From Lactobacillus sp. W8174 (GTDB taxonomy: Bacteria > Bacillota > Bacilli > Lactobacillales > Lactobacillaceae), in the NCBI RefSeq assembly GCF_016100975.1, contig NZ_JACFRN010000001.1, forward strand, positions 558,001 through 622,000: a stretch of DNA of 64,000 bases, given 5' to 3'. The notes below the pieces were generated by a model that saw only the letters and a program-made list of their open reading frames with translations, was not told the origin of the DNA and did not search any database. Position 1 is the first letter of the stretch. Each line of letters begins with the position of its first letter. Of the stretch, positions 51,846-55,515 are shown piece by piece. The translations under genes were made by a program, and so were the position numbers.

Positions 51846-53303
51846 TTATATATATTTACCATTCGAGCTAATTACTCGTTTGTACCAGAAGTAGCTGTCT
51901 TTTAAGTAACGTTTTCTGCTTCCTTGTCCGTTATCATCAATATCTACATAGACAAAGCCATAACGTTTTGACATTTGTTGAGAAGAACACGAAACGATAT
52001 CAATCGGTCCCCAAGCACAATAAGCAATTACTTCTGCCCCATCATGTATTGCCCTTCCTACTTGTTCAATATGCATACTCAGATATTCTGAACGATAAGG
52101 ATCATGTACTTTTTTATCATTTTCCAATTTGTCATAAGCACCTAAGCCATTTTCAGCAATAATAATTGGTTTTTGATAGCGATCATAATATTGAGATAAA
52201 GTATTGTATAGTCCTTGAGGATCAATAGCCCAACCCCAACTACTTTGCTTCAAATTCGGATTTTGTAAATTATCTGCTGGCTGCATCTTATTCTTTGTTG
52301 AGTCAACCATACGAGAATAGTAATAAGAAATAGCTAAAAAATCCATACGATTTTCGTTAATTAATTTCAATTCATTTTGGGTAATATCAAGTTCAATATT
52401 CTTATCATTAAAATAATTTAAAGCAAATTTGGGATATTTACCTCTAAATTGAACATCTGTCACAAAATATTGCATACGATTTTGCTGCATTGCAAGAATA
52501 ACATCGTCCGGCTTACTACTTGCAGGATAAACAGTACCATCAGCAACCATTGTTCCAATGTGTATATTAGGATTATTCAAAGAACGTGCATAATTTTTTA
52601 TTTCGGCTCCTGCCACAATTTGATTATGCATTGCTTGATAAAGAGCTTGTTCCTGATTTGGATATTGATCATTAGCTACACCAACTGAAAGCCAAGGCTC
52701 TATTTGAACCATATTAATTTGATTAACTACAATCCAATATTTTACACGATCGCCAAACCAATCTAATAAAACTTTGCCAAATTTTACAAAAAGCGGAATA
52801 ACCTTCTTATTTGGCCAGCCCCCATATTTAAGTGTAATATTTACAGGAGTTTCATAATGATTCATTGTCATAATTGGTTCAATACCCAACTCCAACATAT
52901 AATCAATCATTTTTGAGTAATGCCTTAGTGCCTTTTCATTAGGCTTTTCATCGTCTCCATTAGGAAAAACTCTTGACCAATCTAGAGAAGTTCTAAAAGT
53001 TGTAAACCCTGCATTAGCTAAAAGCTGTAAATCTTCCTTATAAGTATGGTAAAAGTCAATACCAAAACGTTTGGGATAATAGTTTTCACTATCTTGACTG
53101 TTTTTCTTAACTTCGTTTAACGTCATCCCTTCTGACTCCGCGGCTTGCAACTCTTCATTTGATAATCCTTGAAGATAGGGTTGCACATCTGAGGAATTTA
53201 ATCCTTTTCCATCTGCCTGAAAAGCACCGTCTGCTTGACTTGCAGCTTGAGCACCGCCCCATAAAAAGTTTTTGGGAAAGTATGGAAAATTATTTTTTCT
53301 CAT
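51846..53303 (-). CDS. 6-phospho-beta-glucosidase, GH1 (cellobiose-type PTS operon)
   Basis: A 485-residue GH1 enzyme. ATG 53303 sits behind AGGTGAT; a GTG 9 bases earlier is less likely. The N-terminal signature is [22 protein letters not shown], where the usual QxEG is QADG. Acid/base position is [11 protein letters not shown], in which the normal NE(Q) is NQ, so the general acid Glu appears replaced by Gln. The nucleophile Glu is intact in [10 protein letters not shown]. The phospho-site is [10 protein letters not shown]. Loss of the acid/base Glu is typical of enzymes with altered chemistry, such as thioglycoside cleavage in myrosinase. The start overlaps the EIIA stop by 14 bases. Confidence 0.92.
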
Positions 53304-53652
53304 TCTGATCACCTATACAATGACAATCACGCTTTTCAAATATCTTTATTAAATTATTTGCCAAATTATACTCAGTGTTGATAGTCATCAAAGTATCTTG
53401 AGCATGTGTAAATAATACTGAGTATTGTATTGGCTTACCTTCAGCTTCTTCTTGAATTTTTTTGGTTTGCAGACGATGAGCTTTTACTAATTTTTCGTTT
53501 GCTTTCTTCATGTTCTCTTTTGCGTTATCGTAATTCGAATTTGCTACATCATCCAGAGCTTTACTGATAAAATCACGGGCATCACCGGCGTTTAAAATAA
53601 TGTTCATTGTATTTTTAACATTTTCTTCACTAAATTGTTTATTATCTTCCAC
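53290..53652 (-). CDS. PTS lactose/cellobiose-family EIIA
   Basis: A 120-residue helical-bundle EIIA. The phospho-His is H83 in [12 protein letters not shown], and the buried Asp/His surroundings [13 protein letters not shown] match the family. It passes phosphate from HPr to EIIB. A Cys/His-rich tail ([14 protein letters not shown]) extends past the usual end. It lies 2 bases after EIIC and overlaps the GH1 start. Confidence 0.95.
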
Positions 53653-53654
53653 CT

Positions 53655-54893
53655 CTATGCCTCACTTTCAGTTTCTTGTTTAACCAAATTTCTGTCATAA
53701 ACTTTGAAAAATGGATAATAAATTAAACCACCAACGATAAAAAGGATTACTAATAAAATCATAGAGCTGACTGCTGGACTAACAATCCAGGTAACAAAAG
53801 GAAATGGAATATACCACATTTGCATTAATGAATGTGGTATAGGAGAAAGACCTGATTTAAACCAAAACGCAGTAATTAAAGGCAAAACAATGCCATTGAT
53901 CCATAATGGAATCATTAAGTAAGGATTCCAAACTATTGTGCCAAATACAACTGGTTCATTAATATTAAAAATTGTTGGTAAAACACTGGCTTTTCCAAGA
54001 GCTTTAAGTCGATTCGACTTTGCCCAAAATAGCATCATTAAGACAAGCGGCATTGTACATCCAATACCACCAATCCAAGGAAAACTAAAAATAAGCTCAC
54101 TAGTGAATATATGTTTAGCTGCATGTCCCAAAGAGTATGCACTTGCATTGGCAGCTATACCAGCCAGCATTACTGGCTTATCAATTCCAGATAATACCCA
54201 GCTGGAAATTCCCATTGAATAAATAAAACACTGTAAAAATAAATAAAATGTAAAACCCCACCAAGTATCTAAAGATGTCGCTATAGGTGAAAAAATAGCT
54301 ACAATTAAGCGATAAAGATTAAAGTGCAAAATATCCGTAAGCAACCAACCTGTTGCTATTACAACAGCAATAGGCAACATTGAATCAAACCAAGCTGTCA
54401 CAAAATCTGGCATTGAAGTATCATCACTAAAGAAACTAAACTTAGCAAATAGTTCCATAATCAAAGCAACAAAAACACCAACAACTAAGGCAACAAACAT
54501 CCCTCCTGCACCGAGTTCTGAAAATTGGTATGAAATTACATTACCAGTTTTATCCCATGAAGGGTTAGCAAGCATCAGAAAAAGTGCAACTGAGGATAGG
54601 CCTGCTATAATTCTTTGCTTATTGATCTTTTTAAATTCCATGAAATTAAATGGGACTAAAAAGGCAACAAAAATTGAGGTCAAGCCAAAAGTGAAACTAT
54701 TAATTGGCGAAAGATTTGGCCACCATTTCCAAAAGTTTGTCGGTATATTTAATAAAGTAATTAGTGAACCGACAAAGATAAATGGTAAAACTTCCAAAAT
54801 AGAATTTTTGATAGTGATAATCCATTGATTATTAGCAACTTTTTGTGCCTTAGGAGCAAATTTTGTATTTAAAAAGGTCATGAAGCCATTCAT
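53655..54893 (-). CDS. PTS lactose/cellobiose-family EIIC
   Basis: A 412-residue membrane channel with about ten helices: FLNTKFAPKAQKVANNQWIITIKNS-type start, central ILSGIDKPVMLAGIAANASAY, and signature IFNINEPVVFGTIVWNPYLMIP near residue 305. It lies between EIIB (21 bases upstream) and EIIA (2 bases downstream), forming a complete four-gene IIB-IIC-IIA-GH1 operon. Confidence 0.95.
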   Translation of the reverse strand: MNGFMTFLNTKFAPKAQKVANNQWIITIKNSILEVLPFIFVGSLITLLNIPTNFWKWWPNLSPINSFTFGLTSIFVAFLVPFNFMEFKKINKQRIIAGLSSVALFLMLANPSWDKTGNVISYQFSELGAGGMFVALVVGVFVALIMELFAKFSFFSDDTSMPDFVTAWFDSMLPIAVVIATGWLLTDILHFNLYRLIVAIFSPIATSLDTWWGFTFYLFLQCFIYSMGISSWVLSGIDKPVMLAGIAANASAYSLGHAAKHIFTSELIFSFPWIGGIGCTMPLVLMMLFWAKSNRLKALGKASVLPTIFNINEPVVFGTIVWNPYLMIPLWINGIVLPLITAFWFKSGLSPIPHSLMQMWYIPFPFVTWIVSPAVSSMILLVILFIVGGLIYYPFFKVYDRNLVKQETESEA

Positions 54894-54914
54894 TCTTAAA
54901 TTTTCCTTCTTTCT

Positions 54915-55223
54915 TTATTGTTCTAATTCTTTTTTCAAATGATCTACTGCACCCTTACCATCAAGGATTGCATAATATTCTGGCTTCATTAAGATTACTT
55001 TTACCTGTGAAGGTACTCTTTCTTTTATTGCATTAAATTCTGCTTTTAAGTGAGGTCCAACCATTAGTGCATCAATATCGTTAGCATAATCAGATAATTC
55101 TGCTTCGCTTCTTGCTTGAATTTTAAAATCCAAACCTGCTTTTTTTGCAGCTTTACGCATGTTTGCTGCCATAAAGCCAGAAGATGCTCCGGAACCACAA
55201 ATTAATAGAACATTTTTAGTCAT
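54915..55223 (-). CDS. PTS lactose/cellobiose-family EIIB
   Basis: A 102-residue EIIB with the phospho-Cys C9 in LLICGSGASSGFMA and the typical ending strand/helix (GPHLKAEFNAIKERV; MKPEYYAILDGKGAVDHL). An AAAGGA site precedes ATG 55223. It is the first structural gene downstream of the guanine riboswitch, at a distance of about 100 bases. Confidence 0.95.
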   Translation of the reverse strand: MTKNVLLICGSGASSGFMAANMRKAAKKAGLDFKIQARSEAELSDYANDIDALMVGPHLKAEFNAIKERVPSQVKVILMKPEYYAILDGKGAVDHLKKELEQ

Positions 55224-55292
55224 TGCTTTTTCCTTTCAAGTATTTTTTAGTAATATTTCTTGACTATTTTTTAAACATACTTTTACTTTGTT

Positions 55293-55313
55293 TTATGTAA
55301 ATGGTTTTTTCAC
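55293..55313 (-). other. Six-codon stub ORF behind the riboswitch terminator
   Basis: GAGGAG (55324-55319), spacer AAAAA, GTG start at 55313, then five codons and TAA (product VKKPFT). The good ribosome site immediately after the terminator looks like the head of a lost gene. It could equally be chance. Confidence 0.25.
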
Positions 55314-55320
55314 TTTTTCT

Positions 55321-55370
55321 CCTCAAAACAGAAAACGACTTTTCTACCAAAGCCATGGTAAAAAAGCCGT
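55321..55370 (-). terminator. Expression-platform terminator of the guanine riboswitch
   Basis: A 15-bp stem, ACGGCTTTTTTACCA (55370-55356) with TGGTAGAAAAGTCGT (55349-55335, G-U pairs included), followed by TTTTCTGTTTT. It lies 36 bases after the aptamer P1. Ligand binding would favour P1 and thus termination, the usual OFF-switch arrangement. Confidence 0.88.
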
Positions 55371-55405
55371 TTTAAAAACAGAAATTAATGTTTTAAATGC
55401 TGATT

Positions 55406-55472
55406 TATCCATAGTTCGGAATTTACGGTTCCGAGTAGAAACTGTCGTCCGTATTACGACAATATATAGATA
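55406..55472 (-). promoter_or_regulatory. Guanine-class purine riboswitch aptamer
   Basis: The minus strand folds as a three-way junction. P1 is TATCT/GGATA. P2 is GTCGT/ACGAC with loop AATACGG. J2/3 is the invariant GTTTCTAC. P3 is TCGGAA/TTCCGA with the invariant loop CCGTAAA. J3/1 is ACTATGG. The two G of loop 2 and two C of loop 3 can form the conserved kissing contact. The specificity base in J3/1 is C (position 74 in xpt numbering), so guanine/hypoxanthine rather than adenine is expected. It is followed by a terminator and then a cellobiose-type PTS operon, an unusual target. Confidence 0.94.
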
Positions 55473-55486
55473 TCTATATCTCCTGT

Positions 55487-55515
55487 ATTTTAGCAAAGCT
55501 TTATTTTAAGTGCAA
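55487..55515 (-). promoter_or_regulatory. Promoter of the riboswitch transcript
   Basis: Minus strand TTGCAC (55515-55510), 17-base spacer, TAAAAT (55492-55487). It starts transcription about 8 bases before the aptamer, so the leader is its own unit and not read-through from the MFS gene. Confidence 0.7.

Follow-up and report, generated by a model that had tools for sequence, protein, structure and literature searches.

Guanine riboswitches of the xpt type (RF00167) combine an aptamer that carries C at its specificity position with a terminator/antiterminator platform, and the class normally switches off genes of purine synthesis or uptake. Lactose/cellobiose-type phosphotransferase system (PTS) genes in the order EIIB-EIIC-EIIA, followed by a gene for a family 1 glycoside hydrolase (GH1), are known to go with LicR-type regulators that contain PRD domains. 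We found no report in the open-access literature of a purine or guanine riboswitch associated with PTS and cellobiose or beta-glucosidase genes, and the term 'PTS' does not occur in the main text of a survey of RNA regulons (PMC3766115). Here we analyze a stretch of 64,000 nucleotides from Lactobacillus sp. W8174 (contig NZ_JACFRN010000001.1, positions 558,001 to 622,000; hereafter the window), in which a guanine-class riboswitch lies in front of an EIIB-EIIC-EIIA-GH1 operon. A sequence-only reading of this DNA had proposed either that the operon is regulated by guanine or that the riboswitch had lost its purine gene and now sits there by chance. We conclude that the window probably holds a working guanine OFF switch that was captured by a glycoside operon, the PRD regulator gene of which is absent, and that guanine-repressed use of the glycoside is well supported by comparison with related genomes.

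Honey-bee lactobacilli of the Firm-5 group, to which L. kimbladii and L. kullabergensis belong, are described as having an unusual number of PTS operons that are often gained and lost (PMC4449606), and PTS and other carbohydrate genes are reported to be up with pollen in four Firm-5 species (PMC8456714). Most bee-gut bacteria are reported to lack purine or pyrimidine synthesis; in the same account nucleosides and flavonoids are enriched classes among the compounds depleted in colonised guts, and many flavonoids are used by Firm-5 (PMC5726620).

Results

Judged by its sequence, the leader of the window operon is an xpt-type OFF switch in anatomy (Table 1). The covariance model run over the 64-kb window matched along its full length (all of model positions 1-102), scoring 72.7 bits where the gathering score is 37, with an E-value of 6.3e-11, which bears out the complete purine aptamer described in the sequence-only reading. 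The specificity position, whose place in the aptamer we take from the xpt literature, was read by eye as C (ACUA) in all nine PTS-linked copies described below, again as had been claimed, and the surrounding stretch is AACUAUGG in the three species that carry this arrangement, as expected for the guanine class. A regular expression had returned T at this position in 4 of 99 copies of the riboswitch; this was rejected when the sequences were read, as the expression had landed inside P3. The terminator scan found two terminators against a mean of 0.4 in shuffled sequences. The terminator at 55373-55332 that had been described as a perfect 15-bp hairpin is indeed there, but it is not perfect and has 18 pairs including G-U, while the insulating terminator upstream (55561-55534) was recovered as described. 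Prefix folds computed with no ligand gave the aptamer with P1 at 91-105 nt and the CUAUGG/CCAUGG antiterminator at 140-147 nt; from 154 nt onward they showed the terminator. Thus, in a ligand-free energy model, the terminator competes with an antiterminator that uses the 3' strand of P1, as in an attenuating OFF switch.

The window leader aligns with xpt leaders through the TTGCAC box, the aptamer, the terminator, the ribosome-binding site and the GTG start. The terminator reads TTTTTTACCATGGCTTTGGTAGAAAA in the window leader versus TTTTTTTACCATAGTTTTGGTAGGAAAA in the xpt leader of the same genome, and P2 and P3 each show one two-sided change relative to that leader. Past the GTG the xpt coding sequence is gone, leaving a 6-codon open reading frame (ORF) about 70 bases 5' of EIIB that has six codons in both sister species as well. 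In full-leader similarity, among the 25 leaders listed, the best that are not of the window type are xpt leaders (0.76); a leader of a second operon described below (GH1b) was rejected as the source, since the best of these reaches 0.70. In a tree of the distinct leaders, which are short sequences with uneven support, xpt leaders and four GH1b leaders of Firm-5 genomes share a clade with the window type. From these alignments we conclude that an xpt leader, together with its start codon, gave rise to the window leader. The earlier suggestion that the riboswitch had lost its purine gene is therefore right about the origin, but a chance placement appears unlikely.

The arrangement is carried by W8174 (G000), L. 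huangpiensis F306-1 (G446) and L. kimbladii Dan47 (G447). L. huangpiensis is presumably of honey-bee origin, and W8174 appears by likeness to belong among the honey-bee lactobacilli. All three have PGI-MFS-riboswitch-EIIB-EIIC-EIIA-GH1w (GH1w being the GH1 gene of the window operon) and then a further EIIC-type gene. The absence of a purine gene behind the switch, claimed for the window, extends to the relatives: the possibility that one lies between the riboswitch and the PTS genes was rejected for both L. huangpiensis and L. kimbladii, so that what stands behind this switch is not an xpt-type purine regulon in any of the carriers. The G446 GH1w frame has 485 residues, and the one TGA counted there seems to lie 5' of the start, because the open frame begins three codons later than that of the window. 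The aptamer shows 0/70 substitutions in every pair of carriers and the stretch from the -10 box to P1 0/17, with 1/46 in the terminator stretch in each comparison with W8174. Against L. kimbladii, the spacer before EIIB differs at 8/70 positions (7-16% among the three carriers), the intergenic region behind GH1w at 47/384 and fourfold sites at 12.8-22.3%. At 12-17% neutral change the chance of 0/70 is about 1e-4 to 2e-6, if sites are assumed independent.

At the same site in L. kullabergensis (G018) and in a metagenome-assembled genome (G465), PGI-MFS-EIIB-EIIC-EIIA-GH1w is followed by a regulator and there is no riboswitch. This regulator, a LicR-type PRD protein 628 residues long, contains HTH_11, Mga, PRD and EIIA domains, and the gap between MFS and EIIB is 142-143 bases in these two genomes versus 376-377 in the carriers. 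A regulator match stands behind GH1w in 12 of 12 riboswitch-free orthologous operons (GH1 identity 70-92%) and in none of the three carriers, the riboswitch-free status resting on cmscan for nine (of which the contigs L179 and L181 begin too near or inside the operon to tell) and on RF00167 positions in the genus census for G016, G034 and G096. The 12 matches are 25-100% identical to the L. kullabergensis regulator, the one in G468 being cut by the contig end; the more distant relatives G028, G031 and G451 (56-58%) are not counted among them. An orthologue of the regulator is absent from W8174, L. huangpiensis and L. kimbladii, since the best match anywhere, at 36%, is to a protein that L. kullabergensis has too. 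The sister-type control region is likewise absent from the window. Operator and cre-like motifs were seen by eye in riboswitch-free orthologues, though not in all of them, and are absent in the window; as they had been chosen in the very sequences compared, this is a description and not a test. Lactobacillus-like copies of the operon also occur on contigs assigned to Faecalicatena absiana and Christensenella sp. (L177, L179), and these labels or bins may be wrong.

RF00167 was found at 99 places in 67 of the 75 genus genomes, with the reservation that scans over more than 40 genomes use stricter filters and may miss weak copies. The first gene behind each copy, labelled by script from its best match to reference proteins with representatives checked by Pfam, is xpt in 64 cases, an NCS2-type permease in 24, IMPDH (guaB) in one, a guanine-deaminase-type amidohydrolase in one, GH1b-EIICb in six and EIIB-EIIC-EIIA-GH1w in three. 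All nine non-purine targets are therefore in two kinds of PTS/GH1 operon. The W8174 genome has two copies outside the window, of which one precedes xpt and the other a further GH1 gene. In G454 (L117) the riboswitch precedes guaB-guaA (guaA named by eye), and in G458 (L132) an amidohydrolase, which we take to be of the guanine-deaminase type, and then a permease. A purF match above cut-off was present in 11/75 genus genomes and in 0/8 of those with PTS-linked switches or GH1b remnants, two of which are incomplete (G031 76% and G466 68% complete).

The second operon, GH1b-EIICb, is a distant relative of the first (GH1b and GH1w 30% identical, EIICb and EIIC 25%). A 61-residue GH1b probe matched eight genus genomes at at least 83% identity, the next match being 59% in G021. 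The order GH1b-EIICb is found in six (G018, G000, G449, G466, G031 and G034), with the riboswitch in front in 6/6, and no regulator, lactose-type EIIA or EIIB match was found in the stretch read at these loci; the G031 contig ends about 1.8 kb behind EIICb. In four of the six the pair is next to prs, in one placement that they share; in G034 it lies, with its riboswitch, between xpt (which has its own riboswitch) and guaA, and in G031 its neighbours are sugar genes. W8174 (G000:C8:268692-277790) has an intact riboswitch and EIICb and a GH1b with a single in-frame TAA, a frameshift having been considered and rejected. L. huangpiensis and L. kimbladii (stretches L239 and L240) retain fragments of GH1b/EIICb beside prs and lack the riboswitch stretch. 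Eight genomes thus have GH1b or remains of it, and in the three species among them that carry the switch at GH1w the gene is broken.

Outside the genus, GH1b (E up to 1e-180) was found in one genome of the family sample and in 24/395 of the order sample; the 24 include W8174 and the family-sample genome, and 20 of the other 23 were read (not G515, G534 and G624). The order EIIA-GH1b-EIIB-EIIC-regulator holds in 18 of these 20; of the 18, L250 has other DNA between EIIB and EIIC, and the regulator match of L248 covers only 178 residues. A 25% regulator lies upstream of GH1b in G630, and none is present on the 5.5-kb contig of G754, giving a regulator in 19 of the 20 relatives, and cmscan found the riboswitch at none of these 20 loci. 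Both operons have a PRD regulator outside the group and a riboswitch inside it.

GH1w has NQIN at the site where 6-phospho-beta-glucosidases of known structure, which are also its nearest solved structures (e.g. 6wgd), have NEIN, and its Gln198 aligns to the Glu of 6wgd and 3qom, so that it lacks the acid/base Glu in the NE[IP] motif of two-Glu retaining GH1 enzymes. A GH1 alignment of 120 rows, counting duplicates, has Gln in 29 rows and Glu in 91; the 29 are without exception GH1w or its relatives of at least 45% identity. Among the best 120 of 7247 database homologues, from Lactobacillus, Pediococcus, Companilactobacillus, Listeria, Enterococcus, Paenibacillus and others, all 120 have Gln and 119 have Glu in the nucleophile column. 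Plant myrosinases share Gln at the acid/base position. Given this residue, GH1w probably acts on substrates with a good leaving group, and the enzyme may be best described as belonging to a myrosinase-like subfamily of GH1 that is unassigned and lacks the usual acid catalyst. Degradation of sinigrin via a PTS and GH1 is reported for Companilactobacillus farciminis (PMC8660893). The Gln trait alone does not explain the riboswitch, because GH1b keeps the normal Glu.

EIIA, EIIB and EIIC fall under the NCBIfam cut-offs for the lactose/cellobiose PTS, with EIIC passing that of Pfam PTS_EIIC. GH1w is well inside PF00232 (cut-off 22.6), and its best NCBIfam 6-phospho-beta-glucosidase score is 472.3 against a cut-off of 623.

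Table 1. Features of the riboswitch leader and the operon behind it (window positions)
Feature	Position	Strand	Evidence
Intrinsic terminator of upstream MFS gene, insulates leader	55534..55561	-	Terminator scan, 12 pairs; also in both sister species
Promoter TTGCAC-17-TAAAAT	55487..55515	-	Sequence reading; xpt leaders with similar boxes
Guanine-class purine riboswitch aptamer with flanks	55392..55489	-	RF00167, 72.7 bits
P1 3' strand CUAUGG, potential antiterminator partner of CCAUGG 55358-55353	55409..55414	-	Prefix folds 140-147 nt
Riboswitch terminator hairpin (OFF state)	55332..55373	-	Terminator scan; folds of at least 154 nt
Ribosome-binding site GAGGAG, homologous to xpt-leader site	55319..55324	-	xpt-leader alignment
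6-codon ORF GTG AAA AAA CCA TTT ACA TAA, starts at xpt start-codon position	55293..55313	-	xpt-leader alignment
PTS EIIB, lactose/cellobiose type	54915..55223	-	NCBIfam TIGR00853, 63.3 bits, under cut-off 110
PTS EIIC, lactose/cellobiose type	53655..54893	-	PF02378, 76.9 bits, above cut-off; TIGR00410, 168.6, under cut-off 236
PTS EIIA, lactose/cellobiose type	53290..53652	-	TIGR00823, 86.8 bits, under cut-off 136.95
GH1w, 6-phospho-beta-glycosidase-like enzyme, acid/base Glu replaced by Gln198	51846..53312	-	PF00232, 367.3 bits

Elsewhere in the window, a 22-codon ORF with a ribosome-binding site (51388-51456, minus strand) lies just 5' of an EIIC-type gene (51360-50272) and is kept in three species; it is possibly a leader peptide. 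Genes for an alpha-L-rhamnosidase-like protein and a beta-phosphoglucomutase lie near the operon (46682-50147, plus strand), and a Lacto-usp RNA at 9039-9129 (plus strand, 54.7 bits). A search of a plasmid collection gave no match.

Discussion

In the reading that we favor, a copy of an xpt leader with its promoter, aptamer, terminator, ribosome-binding site and start codon would have replaced another intergenic control region in front of EIIB-EIIC-EIIA-GH1. When guanine is plentiful the nascent aptamer would be bound and P1 held, the terminator at 55373-55332 would form, and transcription would stop before EIIB. When guanine is scarce, the 3' strand of P1 would pair with the 5' arm of the terminator and the PTS and GH1 genes would be made. 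Control of the operon would thereby have passed from glycoside to purine supply, the state seen in the sister species probably being the older one. Guanine control of the operon, as put forward in the sequence-only reading, is well supported by four points: the arrangement recurs in three species, the aptamer is invariant, the regulator gene is missing, and a second operon offers an independent parallel.

Several observations weigh against this reading. The promoter proposed for the leader is visible and has similar boxes in xpt leaders, but TTGCAC-17-TAAAAT is not on the list of the consensus promoter scan, and 5/37 positions of the promoter block differ in L. kimbladii, so that this block is less constrained. 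P1 is unformed at the other lengths tried in the ligand-free folds, where it is mostly outcompeted by a 5' hairpin. The conservation test leans mostly on L. kimbladii, because the operon has changed little relative to L. huangpiensis (fourfold sites 5.3% different in EIIC and 13.0% in GH1w, with 24.4% in MFS), and the capture in the window counts as one event since the three carriers are sister species. At GH1b more than regulation changed, because the genus is also without the EIIA and EIIB genes. RF00167 matches occur in 258/397 family genomes, and the contexts were read within the genus. Finally, a weak promoter-like box, TTTACA-16-TATGTT, lies behind the terminator at 55301-55274. If the PTS genes were made from a promoter of their own between 55321 and 55223, the reach of the riboswitch would end with a short leader RNA or the 6-codon ORF, which does have a ribosome-binding site. 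We consider this extremely unlikely, as the consensus scan found 4 boxes where 3.5 are expected, the first hexamer is TATACA in L. huangpiensis and TATAAA in L. kimbladii, and the spacer holding the box is among the variable parts of the locus. A strong separate transcription start between 55321 and 55223 was named in the sequence-only reading as a refutation, and the scan shows this weak box there.

The xpt leader might instead have been copied as a ready promoter after loss of the regulator, its guanine response kept but useless for glycoside metabolism. This would fit a leader that is plainly an xpt copy, with the xpt start codon still in place, and the frequent gain and loss of PTS operons described for Firm-5 (PMC4449606). 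However, the aptamer and terminator have stayed constant while the surrounding DNA drifts, the non-purine targets in the census are the two PTS/GH1 operons and nothing else, and GH1b is broken in exactly those three genomes of eight that have the switch at GH1w, and we regard such an explanation as unlikely. It is similarly doubtful that the operon imports a purine, that is, a glycoside with a purine, pyrimidine or nucleoside-like aglycone, with the switch providing ordinary salvage feedback. The same kind of switch does control xpt, permeases, guaB-guaA and a guanine-deaminase-type gene, the placements of GH1b-EIICb beside prs and between xpt and guaA are suggestive, and the Gln of GH1w is expected with good-leaving-group substrates; but LicR-type regulators accompany the orthologues outside, just as they do with ordinary beta-glucosides, GH1b retains the normal Glu, and in G031 it neighbours sugar genes rather than purine genes. 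We think it very unlikely that the two operons form a nucleobase-type route that scavenges or detoxifies plant heterocyclic glycosides, in which the PTS would give a 6-phospho-glycoside, a GH1 without the acid/base Glu would release a good leaving group, and the guanine-like base set free in this way would itself shut the operon. The candidate here would be vicine, a diaminopyrimidinone glucoside whose aglycone is the 5-hydroxy analogue of PC1 and PC2. PC1 and PC2 are pyrimidines reported to bind guanine riboswitches (PMC2858708).

Returning to capture of a working guanine switch, guanine control may well be useful for this kind of glycoside use, because two distant operons share the exchange and GH1b decays where GH1w has been captured; easy capture is a possible explanation of the parallel exchange. 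The most likely reason, which we would put at about an even chance, is that bacteria lacking purF depend on salvaged purines and could use guanine as a nutrient signal. A reason in which the glycoside itself yields a nucleobase-like compound is considerably less likely.

A riboswitch seems to replace a protein regulator before sugar genes twice in one genus, in operons with EIIC and GH1 proteins just 25-30% alike. If so, this is a readable natural regulatory rewiring with both states present in sister species, and it would link purine supply to glycoside use in gut symbionts, in a setting where the microbiota is reported to deplete nucleosides and flavonoids (PMC5726620). Our results suggest that guanine supply controls the use of a plant-type glycoside in some honey-bee gut lactobacilli.

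Comparison with described systems places the locus between several of them. Like plant myrosinases, which are GH1 thioglucosidases, GH1w has Gln for the acid/base Glu and keeps the nucleophile Glu; unlike them it is bacterial, nearest to 6-phospho-beta-glucosidases, encoded with a PTS and known from its sequence alone. With the LicR/PRD-regulated lactose/cellobiose PTS operons the window operon shares the order EIIB-EIIC-EIIA-GH1 and 70-92% GH1 identity, but it has no regulator gene, and a guanine riboswitch leader takes the place of the sister-type intergenic region. With the xpt-type guanine riboswitch it shares the aptamer, the specificity C and the terminator/antiterminator platform, and is homologous to xpt leaders of the same clade; in contrast to these, the window copy stands before a PTS/6-phospho-glycosidase-like operon with no purine gene, and keeps the xpt start as a 6-codon ORF.

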